DNA of 64,000 bases. Origin: Hydra vulgaris (taxonomy: Eukaryota; Cnidaria; Hydrozoa; Anthoathecata; Hydridae). Made by a program: the position numbers and the translations under genes. The stretch spans positions 37,237,501 through 37,301,500 of the forward strand of contig NC_088927.1 in NCBI RefSeq assembly GCF_038396675.1, given 5' to 3'. Shown here in pieces: positions 29,600 through 46,340 of the stretch. Every line of letters begins with the position of its first letter. The stretch's first letter is position 1. Under the pieces are notes generated by a model. That model was not told the DNA's origin. It worked only from the letters and a program-made list of their open reading frames with translations, and did not search any database.

Positions 29600-31145
29600 T
29601 ATTTAGCCTGGCGTTTGAATGCTGCATCGGGTTCATCCCGCTGCAAATTCCAGCAGTAATCTGCAAGCATGGCAGGGCTCCACTTTCCCTTGTATTTGCT
29701 TTCCATTGTATACTATGATGAAAGCGCTCGCCATTTTCATCATATACATCTCCATTGACAGAGAAGAAGGAAAGATTGGAATGAAGAAAGTGGAGCTTCG
29801 GCGACATGTTACAACCCAGTTGTTAATAGGATGCAATTAATTTGTCTACCAAATCAGCGTAATTTGGTGCAATATGTTTTCCAAGAAATCCCTGGCACAC
29901 CCGTTTGAATGCATCCCATGCTGCAAGTTCATACTGATCCATCGTTCCCAAAAACGTTTCATCCAGCATCAGTTTTCGTATTTGGGGCCCCACGAAAATT
30001 CCCTTTTTAATTTTTGCGTCACTGATTTTAGGAAATTTGGTCTGCAAATACTGAAATGCTGGTTTGTCGTGATCTAACGTCTTTACAAACTGTTTCATGA
30101 TTCCAAGCTTGATGTGAAGATTGGGCAAGATGATCTTCTCTTTATCCACAAGGGTTCATGAATGACGTTAAGAGAACCAACCTCAAATGTTTCTCGTCGT
30201 GGCCAACATTTCCTCATATAATGTTCTGATTTCATTCCTGCTATCCCATTTTCTGTGATCTCTGTATTTAATTCTGTCCAGAATAAGTAATATATTCACA
30301 TAGCTTTCCCTCAGGGTTACCGAATGTGCTATGGGAATGGAAGGCAGCACATTTCCAGTATGCAGTAATACTGCCTTAATACTATAAAGTGATGCGTCAA
30401 TAAACAAATTTCTCATAGATGAATCGTATTGTATTCCTAGATCATCAAACAATCCACTGATGTCATTACAGAAGCAAAGTTCTTCATCCATAGAGAAGTA
30501 TTGCTGCAGTTCCCGTGATCGCTATCTAAATGACGACACTCTTGCATCACCAGCCAACAGATGCCACTCCTGGAGACGTGAAGCCAACAATTCGCTTTGT
30601 TGTTTTGTTAAATACAAATCTCGAACGAGATCGTTCAGGTCAGATCCTGTTATGAAGTGGGGTTTACGCTCTGTATCTTCTGGCAACTCGTAACTATCAT
30701 CGCCATCAGTATCCTCGTCTGAATCAGAACTGTTCGTGTTTGGGATTTCCGATGGAGGATCAGGAACAGGGAGTTCAGCCGAATGAGGAACAGGACGAAT
30801 AGCTGAAGGTAGATTTGGGTACACTATAGCTTTCTTACCCTTAGAATTGCGACCTGATATATTAACAGAACAGAAATAGCAATCTGAGCAATGATTTTGG
30901 GGTTCACGCCACACCATTGGCACCCTGTTCGCCCTCGACGATAGTGAACTAGCGCACCTCACACAGCATGCATGAGGCGCCCAGTTCTTATCCTGGTCGC
31001 CGACTTTGCAACCAAAGTATAGTTCATATAGTTTTTTCACATGTGGTGTCAATCTTCGTCTGCATCTCTTTAAAGTCACTTCGCCACAAATGTAGCAAAA
31101 GTTGTCGGCTTGATTTTTACAAGTCCTGGGCATTTCTTGTTTCAA
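29600..31145 (-). pseudogene. Cys-rich multicopy family protein, broken copy; family not recognised by name
   Basis: The minus-strand reading starts near 31133 with MPRTCKNQADNFCYICGEVT. Cys pairs CYICGE, CCVRC and CSDCYFC suggest zinc binding in the first 130 residues. An acidic Ser/Asp linker (NTNSSDSDEDTDGDDSYELP) follows, then DLNDLVRDLYLTKQQSELLA. An in-frame TAG at 30519-30521 interrupts VSSFR*RSRELQQYF. CFCNDISGLFDDLGIQYDSS, then LFIDASLYSIKAVLLHTGN follow. Near 30230-30260 a block is missing and the frame shifts. ILPNLHIKLGIMKQFVK, GIFVGPQIRKLMLDE, VCQGFLGKHIAPNYADLV and a C-terminal GERFHH block come next. The order matches a protein type I recall as widespread in hydrozoan and insect gene sets, probably transposon-derived. 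A second fragment is at 22900. Confidence 0.72.
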
Positions 31146-32231
31146 TATACACTGTATTATATCTATATATTACTTGGCTAACTGTAGCTTATCTAAAATA
31201 AAACAGACTTACATTTAGTCTAATACAAGGTTAAACAAATGCAAATAGGTATATGATAAAGAAATGCTAATAAATAAATCATAAACAACTGCTAATAAAT
31301 ATATTAAAAATCACATCGACAACTTTCATAGTGAAAATCGAAAATTTGAAAATGTGAATTTAACCAGAATTGGTGGGTCACACAACAAAACGGACATCAT
31401 TTTCGTAATCTCCAAATCAAAATACATAAGGTAGTGTCAATGGCATTTCCGTTTTTTTTTTCGTTGTTGTACAGTGTAATCAAACGCAAATATCAATTAA
31501 TAATATTTGAAATAATTATAATATATAATTTATGAATTAAACTTGTTATTTATTACTTAAATACTTTTATTGGATATTATTTACGAAGTCAGCATGGGCA
31601 ATTAGTACAATTTTTTATATAAAACACTTTTATCAGGAAAGAAAAAGAACTCTAATAAAAATTTATATGTTTTTGATGAGACGAAACAAATATATGATTA
31701 GTATTGCAATACAATATATTATTATTGTAAAAATTACAAAATTCTATAAGTTGTCTGTACAATAGTTTAAATAAATTTGTGACTATCTACTTTAATATCT
31801 TATATAATGACTATATTACCACCATACTTATTAATTTTAGTTTATAGTAATAATAATATAACAGGATTTATAAAACATCTTATAAAACAACACTTACAAA
31901 ATTTGAAAAAAATAAATCATAAATTAGTTTTTTGTGAAAAATATGACCACAAAACCCTTTTGAAACTAATTAAGCAACGAATTCCTAATTATGCATTTAA
32001 ATTATTTTATTAAAAATTGCTTTTAAAATTCAAGAATTTAGCAACATTACAAATGATGAGGAAATGAATAGCAGCGGTAGCCTGAATAAAATCTCTGAAG
32101 GAATTGAGTATGAATCATTGGAAATCAAATCACGGTCGTTCAAACTTACTTAATAAGTGGAAAGTTATTATACGCAAGCGCAGTAAAATTTAAAATTTCC
32201 CAAAAAAATCTTAAATAATGCAGTAATATAA
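31146..32231. other. Intergenic AT-rich stretch, nothing recognised
   Basis: A 68-codon open frame at 31807-32013 (+) has no motif. No repeats noticed. Confidence 0.45.
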
Positions 32232-39180: not shown

Positions 39181-39275
39181 TCTACTTACTGCAAAGATTG
39201 TCTCAAGAAAATTTATACAAAACATTACTACCTTCAATGTAATCATTGCCTAAACATTTTTCATAAAAGTTGCTA
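39181..39275 (+). pseudogene. LINE with PHD-type finger, first segment
   Basis: Starts ATG and reads STYCKDCLKKIYTKHYYLQC, NHCLNIFHKSC and the first two bases of a Tyr codon. The spacing C-x2-C...C-x2-C-x4-H-x2-C is the first part of a PHD-type zinc finger, as found at the N-terminus of some CR1/L2-like LINE proteins. The finger is cut by the DNA transposon at 39276 and resumes in frame at 46339. Confidence 0.78.
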
Positions 39276-39535
39276 CCCGGTGGGAAATCGGCTAGCGATA
39301 TTCGTAACGATTAAGACAGCGATTTGGCCACGAGGATCGATAGCTTTTTAAGCTAGCGGATCGCTAGCTACAAGTCGTTACGATAAAGATAGCGATTTGG
39401 CCACGAGGATCGCTAGCTTGATAAGCTAGCGAATTGCTAGCTAAATAAGCTAGCGACCCGCTAGCTAATTAAGGTAGAGAATAGCTAGTGAAAACTCGTA
39501 ACAATAACTACACTTCTAGGCTAGAAAATATCGGT
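39276..39535. repeat. Left subterminal repeat cluster of the 7-kb transposon
   Basis: Repeated GCTAGCGATxxG, CGTAACGATtAAGACAGCGA, TTTGGCCACGAGGATCG (twice) and GCTAGCG(A/G) motifs occur in both orientations within 260 bp. The composition contrasts sharply with the surrounding AT-rich DNA. Confidence 0.85.
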
Positions 39536-39865
39536 TAGGCTAGAAGATATTCCTGAAAAAATCGCATGCTATATTTTTCAGGGGAATGAATTATAACCAT
39601 TGAAATAAGATTGCATTTATAACAAATTAAAAACAAAATGTTAAAACTGGTTTCAATAAAAAATTATAAATGTTAAAGTCATTATAAAATGTTAAAAGAA
39701 AATGTATGAATTATTTTTAAAAAATAAAAAAAGCCATTAACAACTAAATGTTTTTGCTTAAATTAAATTAATAATATTAAAAGTTATTTAAAAATATATA
39801 TGAAGAATAAAATAACTAAAAAAAAAAAAAGATGAATAAATAATAAAACAAATTTAAAAAATAAT

Positions 39866-41652
39866 TTAACTGGAATCACTACACGAGTCAGTGTTTAATT
39901 TTCGAATTTTTCTAACAGGACTGTTTAAATCATTTGTTAAAGAAGAATTTCTCTTTCTTGTTGCAAAATATCGATCTTTAGATTTTTTCAAGTGTTTCGC
40001 AATTAAGGTAGTCATACTGGATTCAGTGGCAGTTGGAAATAAACAGTAAGCTGCATCAAAAAAAAAAAATTTCGACTGGTCCTATAAACCTACGCTTTTT
40101 ATCTGCACCAGTTCGATTGATGCTGCAACATAGCTTGTCTGTTATGCAAGTTTTCAAAGCATTTTTTAAAAAGTCACTTACATTTTTCCCACCAATTTGC
40201 TTCATCTTTCTGCAAATGATATCTTTATCATTAGAGTGAATTATTTTTTTTTCTAGTGAATCAAACTCTTCAACTGAATTTGCTGGTAAATAATCTATAT
40301 TTATATTTTCGTTATTACCATGGTTAGTGTCTAAAAGTGAACGTATGGTACGCATTTCGGTTTCCAACCCGCAAACTTTTCTGTACATGGCATTCACTAT
40401 AAATTGAATGCCTTCAACAGTATTGGGTTCAACGTTTGCTTTCAGAATAAAGTTATTTATTTGGTCTATCCCATTTTTTTGAGATGGCAAAGAAAAGGAA
40501 GAAGATGAATGCAATAGTGGTTGAATTTGTGAAACAGACTGCAACTCTGATGGAGACACTGTCTGTGTAACTGGCGAGTCATCTACTTGATCCATTGAGG
40601 CAGAGACAGACAAAAGGTTCTAAAACAAGATTAACAATGATTATAAATACTCTTAAATGATATAAAAACTCTATCACTATATTCTAATTATTTTATACTG
40701 ATTCTTTCATTTAAAAATGGTAACTAAAAAAACAACAAACAAACCATTCAAATGAAACCAAATAAAAATTCTTATTTTCACAAATGGGATAAAAAATTGT
40801 TAAAAATGTATACTGAATTGGAATTGGAGAGCTTTGGTGGCTCCCACAACGGCCATGATGGTAAAGACGGTTCTTCAGAAAGGCTTTTTCTTTTCTCTTT
40901 CCGTTTTGTAGATTTATAGGAGTTCTCTTGTTTTTTTGATGTATTAAATTCAATTTCTACTTCTGATTCTGCAGTGAGAATATGCTACAAAACAAATAAC
41001 TTTTTTAGTATTTGTACAATCATAGTTTTATATGTACAATAAACGTATACAAAAATCTATATTATCAAGAAAGCCCACCAGAAATCAAAATAAATTTAGA
41101 TCATAAAAATTAAAGTACCTAAATTAAATATTCCACACATTTTCTGCAATACTTAGTATATTGATTACAATATAAATAATTTATTAAATTGGTTTAAAAA
41201 CACTCACATTCAATGGTGGAATGCTCTGCCTTTTGGTTTGACCCACACGATCAATAAGTCTAAGGACTCCGTTTTTAGGAGTAAAATTTTTGTTTACTAC
41301 AAGTTTTTGAATTTTTTGAATAAGCAATTTCGTATCAATTCCAACTGAAACGTATAAAATAAATAAAAAATACAATTTTGTAAGATTAATTTACTTTTAA
41401 AAAATGTTACTACTGAAACACTTTTTATTTTTTAATTTCAACAGGGTATAAAATACTTATCTGTAATATGCATGCCGCATTTATACCATCCTTATGCATT
41501 GCCTTTATTTGAAGGTCATCTTCCGTTAATGTTTGACCACGAGATCTCCAATCATCCATAGACCAATTTTTTAGTTTCTCTGACATTATTATGTCACAGT
41601 TTTTTAATTCCAGAACTTCACTGTCACAATACAAATATACAATATAATTCAT
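39866..41652 (-). CDS. DUF4806-domain-like protein carried by the transposon, four exons
   Basis: Exons, reading down: 41652-41457, 41344-41208, 40984-40814, 40619-39866. Acceptors TTTCAG, GTTTCAG, TTTGTAG, TTTTAG and donors GTATTT, GTGAGT, GTATAC; every phase agrees. Exon 1 opens ATG and reads MNYIVYLYCDSEVLELKNCD, then KLKNWSMDDWRSRGQ. Exon 3 is basic (KSTKRKEKRKSL). The last exon has a Ser/Gln-rich stretch, then YLPANSVEEFDSLEKKI, IICRKMKQIGGKNVSDFLKN and DKLCCSINRTGADKKRRF. The L-P-x-x...E-x-L-E-x-K...IGG-x-N-V-x-D...RRF pattern fits DUF4806. About 418 residues, probably nuclear (basic tracts). A 12-T run at 40064 puts the last 66 codons out of frame by one base; with 11 T the frame continues DAAYCLFPTATESS to TAA at 39866. 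Role in transposition unknown. Confidence 0.72.
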
Positions 41653-41849
41653 CTGAAATAAAACATTTGCAAAATGTAACATAAAAATTATACATTTATT
41701 ATTTAGAAAATACACAGTTAAAATAGTATAAAGACTTCAAATGAATTGATATATTTTTAAATCAACACAAAATTTTTTAAAAAATTAAAAAAAAACTAAT
41801 CAAGTTCTGTAAATAAATTAAAATTATAACCCATAGAAACTTTAAAACT

Positions 41850-43146
41850 TTAGTTTAATTTGCAGACCAATGGGATAATTAGAAAGTAGTTTTCCCTACA
41901 AATAATCATGATACATTTTCGAATGGGTCTAACATTATAAGCATGTGTGCGACTTTTCTGATAATATCCAATTCTAAGGACTTTTGATGAGTACGGAAAT
42001 GTATAAAGTGGCTTCACATAAGATAAAAGAATTCCAGATATATGTAAACAGTCAAGACTTGTACTAGTGCATAAAACAATGGAACCATCATCAATAACAA
42101 AAGCACAATCCGGCAGATCAGTAGAAATCTTTACAGTGTTCAAGTGATTATTAGTTACTGATCGAAGATCATTCAAGCAAACAATTGCGTGTTGAAAAAT
42201 GTTTCTACCTGTTTTAATTCGTCTTTTTAATAAACCCAACATATTTTCGAATTGAAATGCAGAAAATGAGTCCAAAGGTCCATATTTTACTACAAAAAAA
42301 GCTAGATGAATTAACACATGCACATTATAGACCATAGATCTTTTGCTAAATAATATAGGCATAAATTCAACAAATTTTTTAACACACTCAGATGCAATAA
42401 CATGATAAGCAACATATTCATCAGAAGCCAAAACATACATGCTGAAGTGCAACATAATAAAATGGTCATAATACCGATCTGGCAATTTATCATGTAAGAG
42501 AAATGGTCCAAGATATAAAACAAACTGTCGAAATTCAGAGGCTTTCCAGTTTTTAAAATTAACCAAAGAACTAAGTTTTCTGTGGAATTCTGATGGTAAA
42601 TACTTCCTTATATCATCGATTTCAGCGGATAATTTACTCAGTAAATGTTGTGAAAGTCTACAAAATAAATGCAGAAAAGGTACTTTAGTGAAATAATATG
42701 TGCATAACTTTTTCACCACACCTTGGAGTACCAGATGCATATATTCTGGAGGACATGACGATTGCAGTCCACTTAATTGAGGAATATTCAAAAGAGGTGA
42801 AGGGCCATGCTGATTATTTTCTGATATACTTTTGTAACTTTCATCAGAACGTGGTGTACAATTCTGATCTGTAAAAATAATACGATTGTAACAATACTCA
42901 CCTTTGATATTACAGTACCCACATCCGTAGTATGCATTGTGATTAAAAATATTTTGGGCAAATGAACGTGCAGGGGTATCACAGATAAAATCAACATTAG
43001 AAATAACCATTTGTTGTCCTTTCAAATCAAAAGGAACACTTAAAATTTGCAATTCATCAACCAGTTGTTCAAGATAAAAATTCAAATTTGGTTTTTCTAC
43101 ACCACAGTGCAATGATACAGGAAGTGCACCAATATGATTATAATCC
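41850..43146 (-). CDS. Tnp2-like transposase, terminal exon (N-terminal part not found)
   Basis: The open frame extends to 43235, but a good acceptor (AATGTCATTTAG) suggests the exon starts at 43146 with DYNHIGALPVSLHCGVEKPN. Then FICDTPARSF (second catalytic Asp), YYGCGYCNIKGEYCYNRIIF (zinc-knuckle-like Cys pair in an RNase-H-fold insertion), SSCPPEYMHLVLQGVVKKL (the D/E-x-M-H-x-V-L-x-G-V block), WKASEFRQFVLYLGPFLL, VHVLIHLAFFVVKYGPLD and FSAFQFENMLGLLKRRI (catalytic Glu). It ends LVCKLN and TAA 41850. About 432 residues against about 900-1000 for full proteins. The upstream exon with the first catalytic Asp (usually ADG) is absent from the rest of the element as far as I can see. Same strand as the DUF4806 gene 200 bp downstream. 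Confidence 0.85.
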
Positions 43147-43244
43147 CTAAATGACATTAGAATTTGATATGCATTTGATAATGCTTTACATATATGTAAA
43201 GCAATATCAAAAGAATAGACTACACACACACTCACACATATATC

Positions 43245-43690
<446 letters not shown>

Positions 43691-44209
43691 AAATATCCTA
43701 TGAGATATAGAGTAAAATGGGTTAAAACTGAATAGCAAGGAAAACACTTATGGAATGGTAATTAATTTTCATTAAAAATGAAAGCGTTTTGAAAAAAAAT
43801 GGCGAATATTAGGGTTTTTAATGGGATTTTTTACAACATTGACTTCGAATTAGAGCACTTTCCGTTTATTTTCAGGTCTACGTTTTTATATTTTTCTGAA
43901 TCAGCATAAAATTCTCTATCATAATCAATCATAAAAAAAAAAAGGGGGGGGGGTGGGAAAAACTGCAGTAGCGCCACACTTATGAAAATCTTTTAACTTT
44001 GATTACATTAGGTTTTAAACAAAAATATTTCAAAATTATTTTAGTTCTTTATTATAAAGAATTTTGTGCTGTTTCTAATGACATAAAATAAACAAAAATC
44101 AATTGTCAATAGTAAACTGACTGCGCTTATCTATCTTACCAACATCTTTTTCCACAAGTCTGGAACAGTGCGCCGAAACTACAACTGTATTAAAACATTT
44201 CGACTTAAA

Positions 44210-44480
44210 GGCCGGGTGAATAAAAATGAGCAATTTTTATCAAGTTTTTATTAAAGTAAAATTGACCAATTACTAAGTATACTGCTTACCCTTACGTAAA
44301 CAAAAATATAACAAAAGCTCCTAAAGTTTTTATTCACGTAAAACTGACCAATTACTGATTAAAAGCAATTTGTGTAGCTGGCTACAAGATAGCCACAAAT
44401 CAATAGCTAGTTGATAGCTACATATCGCAGTTTTTAATAAAGAGATTGTATTATAATTGCTCATCTTTATTCACCCGGCC
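44210..44480. mobile_element. 271-bp MITE nested in the 7-kb transposon
   Basis: Inverted ends GGCCGGGTGAATAAAAATGA and (reverse complement) GGCCGGGTGAATAAAGATGA. Flanked on both sides by TAAA (44206-44209; 44481-44484), a likely 4-bp duplication. The interior has ACTGACCAATTACT twice. No coding. Confidence 0.82.
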
Positions 44481-45014
44481 TAAAATCAGTAGCTAAAAAG
44501 CTGCGATATGTCGCAATCAAATCGATTATTAGAGTCCTATTTACAGTAGCAACCAGACAATCTCTAATGGCCTTATTATAAAAGGACAAAAATAGACTTC
44601 GACAAAGCACTAATTGCAACAATTTTAATTACAACTATCAAAAATGAATTGTCTATAAAAAATGTTTGTCTTTCTAGACAATCATTTTAAAAACGGACAC
44701 TAAATGAACAATCTCGATTTTTTAATGAGGTATAGAAGATCTATTTAATATATAATTTGGACTTATAACGAGTAATTAAATTTTCACTGCAGCATCGTTT
44801 CAAAAACTGAAAACGAGCACAAAATTAAAAATACAATTTTTCTAACAGAAGTTCATTTTTTAATTTTTTGTCCAGCGTGTGCTGTTGATTAAAAAGTTAA
44901 TGTCTATTTAAAAACCTCAAAATGGACTATTTTGTGCTCAATTGAAGTTCATTAATTACTCAGTTCAGTTGTTTTTCAATTCTCAGTGAATGTGCGTGAA
45001 AATTTATTTTTAAA

Positions 45015-45144
45015 ATGCCCTCTCCAGTTTGGGATTACTTCAAAAAAGTTGAAGGTAAGTTTATCATTTAAAAAATCTAATCAATCCTGATTTTCTTAAC
45101 ATTCTATCCTCAGACTGTGAATCTGACTATGATTGGATCTAAAT
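45015..45144 (+). other. Short spliced-looking frame, possible BED-finger-like first exon
   Basis: ATG at 45015 reads MPSPVWDYFKKVE, with consensus donor AAG|GTAAGT at 45055. A pyrimidine-rich acceptor CTATCCTCAG ends at 45113, and the joined frame adds DCESDYDWI and stops. V-W-x-Y-F-x-K is a common beginning of BED zinc fingers in hAT and other transposases, but the Cys pairs are absent. It is divergent from the two minus-strand genes. It may be a relic of an accessory gene. Confidence 0.35.
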
Positions 45145-45479
45145 TTTGGAAAATCAACTATTTGTGTAAACATTATTGTCATATTCCGTCCTAAAATTTG
45201 TCACCACTTTAAATTTGTCACCATAAAAGTCATTTTTACCATGAAATAAAATTCAAATATAATGTATCGTATATTTTCTTTTTTGTTTCTAAGGGATTTT
45301 TTGGATAATTTAGATTTTATTGGCAAAAATCAATATTTCTGGTTTTATGAAATCGAGTAGATTTAGACAAAATCATAGACACCAAATAGACAAAAAATTA
45401 TGCTTTGTAGACTTATGAAGTGAAAATTATTTTTTAACTGAGCAATTTTAGGACACCATCAAAAATTTGATGGTGTCCC

Positions 45480-46150
45480 AACTAGCTATCGATTTGCGGC
45501 TATCATGTAGCTAGCTATACAAATACGATATGTAGCTAGCGATAAATCGTTATTAAATCGATAGCTTAAAAGCTGCGATACGTAACAATCGAATAGCTAT
45601 TGATTTATCGCTATCTAGTAACCAGCTACACCAATACGATATGTAGCTAGCGTCTTTTCGTAATAAAATTGCTTTCTTAAAAACTGCGATATGAAGCTAT
45701 CAACTAGCTATAGAGTTGTGGATATCATGTAGCTAGCTACAAAGCTACGATATGTAACTAGCGATAAATCGTTATTAAATCGATAGCTTAAAAGCTGCGA
45801 TACGCAACAATCGAATAACTATTGATTTATCGCTATCTAGTAACCAGCTACACCAATACGATATGTAGCTAGCGTCTTTTCGTAATAAAATCGCTTTCTT
45901 AAAAACTGCGATATGAAGCTATCAACTAGCTATCGAGTTGTGGCTATCATGTAGCTAGCTACAAAGCTACGATATGTAACTAGCGATAAATCGTTATTAA
46001 ATCGATAGCTTAAAAGCTGCGATACGTAACAATCGAATAACTATTGATTTATCGCTATCTAGTAACCAGCTACACCAATACGATATGTAGCTAGCGTCTT
46101 TTCGTAATAAAATCGCTTTCTTAAAAACTGCGATATGTAGCTAGCGACAT
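45480..46150. repeat. 222-bp subterminal tandem array, about three copies
   Basis: The phrase GCGATACGTAACAATCGAAT recurs at 45575, 45797 and 46019, exactly 222 bp apart. Each unit carries several GTAGCTAGC, CGATATGTAGC and TAGCTATC(G/A) motifs. It ends about 190 bp before the right terminus; the remaining bases add GCTAGCTAGTCGCTCGCTAG. Confidence 0.93.
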
Positions 46151-46340
46151 ATCGTTACAAAATCGACATGTTTAAAGTTCAATTATTTTCATAATTATAA
46201 TAGATCCAACACTAAAAATCGAATTATTGAAGATGTTAAAGACATTACGAAAGAATAAAATAAGAAAAGAAAAATCGCTAGAAAATCGCTATAAAGCTAG
46301 CTAGTCGCTCGCTAGTCGTTAGCTCATTTCCCACCGGGTA

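Follow-up and report, generated by a model that had tools for sequence, protein, structure and literature searches.

The 64,000-nucleotide window analysed here (Hydra vulgaris, contig NC_088927.1, positions 37,237,501 to 37,301,500) harbours a transposon that interrupts a PHD-type reading frame and contains a truncated Tnp2-like transposase exon, a spliced gene of the DUF4806 type on the same strand, and subterminal repeats (Table 1). An earlier note on this DNA, made from the sequence alone, reported 13-bp perfect ends, TA on both sides and a PHD frame that continued across the insertion, all of which were confirmed in the window copy. The terminal inverted repeat (TIR) CCCGGTGGGAAAT had only two exact matches in the window, where 1e-4 would be expected from base composition; five sites were found at three or fewer mismatches, and the other three all had three. 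With mismatches allowed, 20 of the 23 outermost bases of the element ends agreed. Joining the flanks with one TA gave the open frame MSTYCKDCLKKIYTKHYYLQCNHCLNIFHKSCYQLNDVEFRILKNFKTSWFC..., and two TAs broke it. When 0, 1, 2, 3 or 4 bp were removed, the open stretch over the join was 0, 44, 83, 62 and 43 amino acids (aa), respectively, with the maximum exactly at 2 bp.

Table 1. Features of the transposon, with positions in the window.
Feature	Position	Strand	Remarks
Element ends			CCCGGTGGGAA
Whole element, 7,063 bp	39276..46338	.	Internally deleted, sits in PHD-type reading frame
Left copy of 2-bp target duplication (TA)	39274..39275	.	Flank comparison and frame test
Right copy of 2-bp target duplication (TA)	46339..46340	.	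Flank comparison and frame test
Left TIR CCCGGTGGGAAAT	39276..39288	+	Same end in other copies
Right TIR	46326..46338	-	10/10 other right ends have C for one T
Left subterminal direct repeats, GCTAGC-rich, 73-bp and 24-bp units	39302..39488	.	Other copies hold more units
Right subterminal array, 111/222-bp units	45483..46139	.	Also in other copies
Truncated transposase exon	41850..43164	-	Lacks first Asp, keeps second Asp (DTPAR), C(2)C, H(3)H and Glu; identity to fuller copies stops at 43164
Deletion point	43164..43173	.	~600 bp of transposase coding DNA of fuller copies missing, including NLDGLPVFKSS..FWPI with first catalytic Asp
Deletion point	45471..45479	.	~0.8 kb of fuller copies missing, including probable start exon MASKISSDDSEC...
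DUF4806-type gene, exon A	41457..41652	-	ATG directly after splice acceptor; model by hand
DUF4806-type gene, exon B	41208..41344	-	Model by hand
DUF4806-type gene, exon C	40814..40984	-	Model by hand
DUF4806-type gene, last exon	39866..40619	-	Domain match in first part; frame broken at 12-T run near 40060

Copies of the element and their target-site duplications

The 911.5-Mb assembly (15 contigs, with the window on contig 8) was searched with the transposase exon (41853-43157). At least 104 matches were found in the genome, of which at least 12, including the window, covered the full query at 92-100% identity, and many matched at 30-41%. An open frame of 631 aa without a stop within the match was present in at least four genomic places. 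Among the 20 stretches that we examined, 13 belonged to the window family (L024-L036) and seven to other families (L037-L043); runs of N were present in L024, L042, and L043. Both ends were recognized in eight of the 14 window-family copies (L024-L036 and the window), with element lengths of 5,986-8,903 bp, while only the left end was found in L026 (two mismatches), L027, and L034 (one mismatch), and only the right end in L030, L033, and L036. Since a C replaces the T of the window in all ten other right ends, the perfect 13 bp are private to the window copy, and the usual perfect match is 11 bp. Most copies with a recognizable left end start with CCCG, the exception being L035 (GCCG).

Three further families were compared. 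Family A (L037, L038, and L039, with L044-L046) shares 36% identity with the window-family transposase over the full length (L037) and 39-41% over the exon. Its elements were 6.56-6.78 kb long and had the ends CCCGCCTTAAAA...TTTTAAGGCGGG, which, like those of the window family, start with CCCG (CCCGCC). Family B had CCCGACAAGAAA on the downstream side, and a convincing end was looked for in family C (L041) and not found. A 47-bp palindrome in L048 (4340-4386 in window orientation), starting CCCGACAAGAAAGG and ending CCTTTCTTGTCGGG, resembles a direct fusion of both termini of a family B-like element.

The earlier note called for a search for further copies with alignment of their ends and flanks; carried out here, it gave no 3-bp duplication in any of 11 copies from two families. 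The 2-bp flanks were identical in nine of these 11 copies, comprising six of eight in the window family (TA in the window and L028, AT in L029 and L032, GT in L031, and AA in L035) and three of three in family A (AA once and TA twice, one TA lying within a TA run). Identical 3-bp flanks were present in 0/8 and 0/3 copies, respectively. The TA duplication of L028 sits in a TA-rich place, and the left end of L035 has two mismatches. The 2-bp length of the duplication was therefore upheld, but its proposed TA specificity was not, with AT, GT, and AA elsewhere and TG and AC in two copies with two extra bases. Because the other copies duplicate 2 bp of varied sequence, the TA of the window was a sample of one.

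The duplication length was also assessed by removing 0 to 4 bp at the join of ten copies. Exact removal of 2 bp gave the longest frame in the four insertions into recognizable coding frames, namely the window (83 aa), L031 (100 aa), L032 (100 aa), and the family A copy A39 (95 aa), where the join restores a reverse-transcriptase frame containing NYRPISLL. The frame of L035 was also longest at 2 bp (73 aa), with no recognizable protein. A 300-bp query made of the L031 flanks, joined after removal of 2 bp, matched across the junction at all 40 scored places (of 405 candidates), and 34 of these 40 empty sites showed no net length change.

The transposase and its DUF4806-type partner

When the transposases of the four families were aligned (36, 30, and 28% identity to the first), the first Asp (D1, xDG), the second Asp (D2, D.PAR), C..C, H...H, and the Glu were all kept. 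The Glu stands in the context FEN, or AES in L041, and D1 of L037 reads GIDG in the alignment. All four full Hydra proteins thus had the DDE triad and, between its second D and the E, C(2)C and H(3)H; the window copy lacks the first D. This arrangement supports the Tnp2-like character proposed earlier and agrees with the signature described for CMC transposases, in which C(2)C and H(3-4)H likewise stand between the second D and the E of the triad (PMC12730594).

The window copy is internally deleted. Fuller copies hold ~600 bp more between 43164 and 43173 (e.g., L029-L033), and in L025 and L030-L033 an extra ~0.8 kb or more is present at 45471-45479. The latter segment includes MASKISSDDSEC..., which precedes a splice donor in L025, L031, and L032 and is the probable start exon. 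With the first catalytic Asp and this probable exon lost, the window copy could move only with supplied protein. A splice acceptor of the transposase exon at 43147 was rejected, since fuller copies read through it and the window copy is deleted at 43164/43173; an inversion of 43200-45480 was rejected as well, given the same-strand alignment in other copies. A hairpin (TTAGGACACCATCAAA/TTTGATGGTGTCCCAA, 45448-45481, 16-bp arms 94% complementary) lies on the 45471/45479 deletion point.

Searches with the window exon gave no useful family match in Pfam, NCBIfam, PHROGs (one at 0.13), or PDB sequences (best 0.1). Pattern scans of viral and prokaryote contigs and searches of phage records for relatives of the transposase found none. 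A match between the four-family profile and a phage nozzle protein (8e-4) was regarded as chance, and 15 viral contigs with the 15-mer TACCCGGTGGGAAAT, one match each, were taken as chance. A loose CMC spacing pattern matched 418 of 5000 shuffles and was hence uninformative; a strict CMC pattern matched 0 of 5000 but was applied post hoc.

Downstream of the transposase and on the same strand lies a spliced frame that matched Pfam DUF4806 at 7.1e-5 (23.5 bits versus a cut-off of 25). Its last-exon frame ran unbroken in L027 and L032; in L024 and L026 it was interrupted at another place than the T run. We used the DUF4806 domain of the window in a phmmer search against 4025 frames from 22 sources. 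Next after the window's own frame came the frames in the same place in family A (three of three copies, E = 0.0018) and family B (two of two, E = 0.0036 and 0.0041), followed by a match at 0.34. The family C frame was not found in this round; by eye, family C has frames resembling the DUF4806 N-terminus and the domain downstream of its transposase. A profile of the window family and family C found family A at 7e-9 and family B at 1.4e-6. The phmmer ranking thus provides blind evidence for a transposase/DUF4806 pair in three of the four families (window, A, and B), with family C being weak.

The DUF segments of families A, B, and C, searched one by one with Pfam, gave no DUF4806 match in one search and in another only one, in family C (E = 0.035). 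The Pfam DUF4806 model found a single place in the whole genome, indicating that it misses these split exons and that the pairing is carried by the phmmer and profile searches. DUF4806 was reported among the domains enriched in Hydra, with counts of 69 and 54 compared to 6, 0, 1, 0, and 0 in five other cnidarians (PMC7642931). In a literature search, the passages on the domain held nothing tying DUF4806 to a transposon. We regard the DUF4806 partner beside the transposase in diverged Hydra families, clear in three and weaker in the fourth, as the main new feature of this element and the part worth following. On the boldest reading, which we hold to be less likely than not, the expansion of DUF4806 genes in Hydra, and perhaps elsewhere, would be transposon-borne. 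Confirmation of the pairing would reveal what this domain of unknown function does and yield a testable two-protein model of animal CACTA relatives.

Relation to known elements and proposed working

With a probability of about 0.86, we consider the window element to be a non-autonomous, internally deleted Hydra transposon copy of the TRC kind (Transposon Related to CACTA; "EnSpm" in Repbase) within the CMC group. TRC elements of the CACTA superfamily were proposed in 2006 for animals and are characterized by a CCC core and 2-bp direct repeats, the latter reported for 7 of 14 SmTRC1 copies (DeMarco et al., PMC1636069). In the Hydra copies, the TIRs began with CCC in both the window family and family A, apart from the left end of L035 (GCC), and the 2-bp duplication was present in nine of 11. 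The CCC core is described in the TIRs of Schistosoma, Aedes (CCCAGTCAAC), and Tribolium (CCCTAGTAG...) elements together with 2-bp direct repeats, a Tnp2-type transposase, tandem repeats, and spliced transcripts, corresponding to several exons here (PMC1636069). The D to D spacing is likewise similar, at 80 in SmTRC1/TRC (PMC1636069) and 76-77 in the three Hydra proteins measured. In contrast, the TIR sequences after CCC differ, the strict motif [LVI]Dx[LM]Hx3LG is absent in Hydra, and the passages on TRC in PMC1636069 make no mention of a DUF4806-type second gene.

A Hydra element of the TRC kind has been described before. Spongebob_HMa (EnSpm-4N1_HM in Repbase) has CCC ends and 2-bp duplications and was assigned to TRC (PMC4298943). 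It shares with the window element the host, the TIR start CCC (CCCAGCCAACATTGAC), and the 2-bp duplication; compared by description only, it has another TIR sequence and a length of 5.8 kb, and its coding part is not resolved in that paper. The earlier note had seen that the ends are not of the CACT type and had inferred a lineage with its own terminal motif. The first part held up, with CCCG present also in family A, which is 36-41% alike in transposase. The motif itself is not new, because the signature published for TRC elements consists of CCC ends with 2-bp duplications. The inference drawn from one copy is corrected accordingly: the TA exemplifies a duplication of 2 bp without fixed sequence, and CCC is an established hallmark of animal CACTA relatives.

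Several observations weigh against assigning the element to TRC, beginning with the target duplication. As they stand, two of the eight window-family copies mismatch at the 2-bp flanks (CA/TG in L024 and AA/AC in L025). Their flanks agree (TG and AC) if the duplication is placed two bases further out on the left, leaving an extra CA or AA between the duplication and the CCCGG end (left ends at 251 in L024, in window orientation, and 266 in L025). With the two extra bases, the L024 join gives ...NNRLNQNSSNENVFNSSKQIFEDALRKSGFQN..., which keeps register with ...NIRLNQNSSNENIFNSSKRFYEDALKKSGFQN..., the uninterrupted relative found in L037; the case of L025 is weak, because its flank is a CA repeat. 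The left ends of these two copies look as if cut 2 bp outside, perhaps with an old donor duplication carried along. Moreover, 2 bp was not favoured by the frame test in five of the ten copies (L024, L025, L028, L029, and A37). L024 had 88 aa at 1 bp and 72 aa at 2 bp, as expected given its two extra bases. The frames of L025 and L028 were 65 and 61 aa at 0 bp and 61 and 58 aa at 2 bp, respectively, and that of A37 was 83 aa at 0, 1, 3, and 4 bp and 75 aa at 2 bp. L029 had 100 aa at 1 and 4 bp and 79 aa at 2 bp, its long frame at 1 bp running on the strand opposite to the more protein-like right flank. We read L025, L028, L029, and A37 as insertions outside a usable or recognizable coding frame. 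The element limits were fixed in two of the four families, the window family and family A.

Other such observations concern the transposase. The window-family transposase had no Pfam match (exon, E up to 10; 631-aa protein, E up to 1), including to the Transposase_21 (Tnp2) domain, and DDE, C(2)C, and H(3)H were recognized by alignment. Family A matched DUF4218 at 6.7e-4 and family C DUF1258 at 0.0037, both below the cut-off, and family B matched nothing alike. The probable CMC identity is thus drawn from motifs, the weak DUF4218 match of family A, and literature criteria. The strict motif [LVI]-D-x-[LM]-H-x3-L-G, which is noted in eumetazoan TRC proteins and not stated as a requirement in the passages of PMC1636069, was present in none of the four full proteins, and a relaxed form, [DE]-x-[LM]-H-x4-G, in all four. 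The AlphaFold model of the transposase was poor (mean pLDDT 44.8, pTM 0.35); near D1, D2, and E, its strands and helices appear to follow each other in an order resembling that of an RNase H core.

Canonical CACTA/EnSpm elements have CACT(A/G) ends and usually a 3-bp duplication, and neither was found in the Hydra copies, although the duplication alone is not decisive. The 4-bp target duplication of Chapaev elements also disagrees with flanks identical in nine of 11 copies at 2 bp and in none at 3 bp. Plant CACTA/EnSpm elements with TnpA and TnpD resemble the Hydra element in having a transposase, a second protein, and subterminal repeats, and differ from it in their CACT(A/G) ends and usually 3-bp duplications; to our knowledge, TnpA is not known as a DUF4806 protein. 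In favour of an ordinary CACTA element with ends changed by mutational drift are the CMC-group transposase motifs and the subterminal repeats, which also occur in CACTA elements. CAC ends together with 2-bp duplications are on record for animal CACTA elements (PMC6004678). Drift is nonetheless very unlikely, given that CCCG is common to most left ends (not GCCG of L035) and to a family only 36-41% alike, and that no copy showed a 3-bp duplication.

Fungal and animal CMC-like elements with short duplications provide another comparison. ESTA, PlavakaA/B, and Lanisha have CMC-like transposases that carry C(2)C and H(3-4)H, and their duplications are short (2 bp in PlavakaA, TA in ESTA); the termini of PlavakaA (TGT) and PlavakaB (CATCA) are unlike those in Hydra, and the hosts of ESTA and Plavaka are fungi (PMC12730594). 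CNEST, found in Cryptococcus with animal relatives, is like the window element in its length of ~7 kb, CMC-type transposase, 2-bp duplication, and CGG at end positions 3-5, and unlike it in duplicating TA and in its 33-bp TIR starting with CACGG instead of CCCGG (PMC12810828). TA-duplicating CMC elements therefore exist too, and the window element could belong to the TA-specific ESTA or CNEST type, with ends in a form peculiar to Hydra. Such a relationship would accommodate the TA/TA flanks of the window copy, the TA in two of three family A copies (one in a TA run), the EnSpm-like ESTA with its TA duplications (PMC12730594), and the 7.2-kb CNEST, which has a CMC transposase, TA duplications, and CACGG ends and groups with unclassified animal transposases (PMC12810828). 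It is largely refuted, and hence highly improbable, by the AT, GT, AT, and AA duplications in four window-family copies and AA in one family A copy, of which GT (L031) is backed by the frame and by all 40 scored uninterrupted places; TA is common anyway in DNA of 72% A+T. Least probable is a reading in which the Tnp2-like gene was captured as cargo by an element whose ends come from an unrelated superfamily. This reading has no direct point in its favour and is at odds with the occurrence of CCCG ends, transposase, and DUF4806-like gene in the same order in two separate families and with the frame lists of the window element, where no second transposase-like frame was seen.

For a TRC-type element, we propose the following working. 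Fuller copies carry two same-strand genes, one for a Tnp2-like DDE transposase and, downstream of it, one for the DUF4806-type protein. The latter may bind to the GCTAGC-rich subterminal repeats and help the transposase, which would pair the two CCCG ends and cut the element out in a cut-and-paste manner. Joining of the excised element to a target cut with a 2-bp stagger would then leave 2 bp of variable sequence duplicated. Fuller copies would supply the protein to mobilise the window copy in trans.

Other sequences within and near the element

A nested frame of 853 aa, judged by eye to be a THAP/P-element-like transposase, was observed in the one-ended copy L026 (1196-3754; 6247-8805 in window orientation). 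The two alignment blocks flanking it share 9 bp (window positions 44131-44139), as would be expected of a short duplicated target.

Within the window transposon, a small inverted-repeat element occupies 44209-44481, with the ends AGGCCGGGTGAATAAA and 32-bp arms that are 91% complementary, and contains an 81-bp inverted copy of a subterminal unit (44373-44453). L031 aligns through this region at 98.5%, so the small element is older than at least some copies. A short BED-finger-like start (MPSPVWDYFKKVEG, 45015-45056, + strand), antisense to the transposase, precedes a donor-like GTAAGT site; a further exon for it was looked for and none was found. Outside the transposon, the window contains a cysteine-rich open frame of 215 aa at 30522-31169 on the minus strand.

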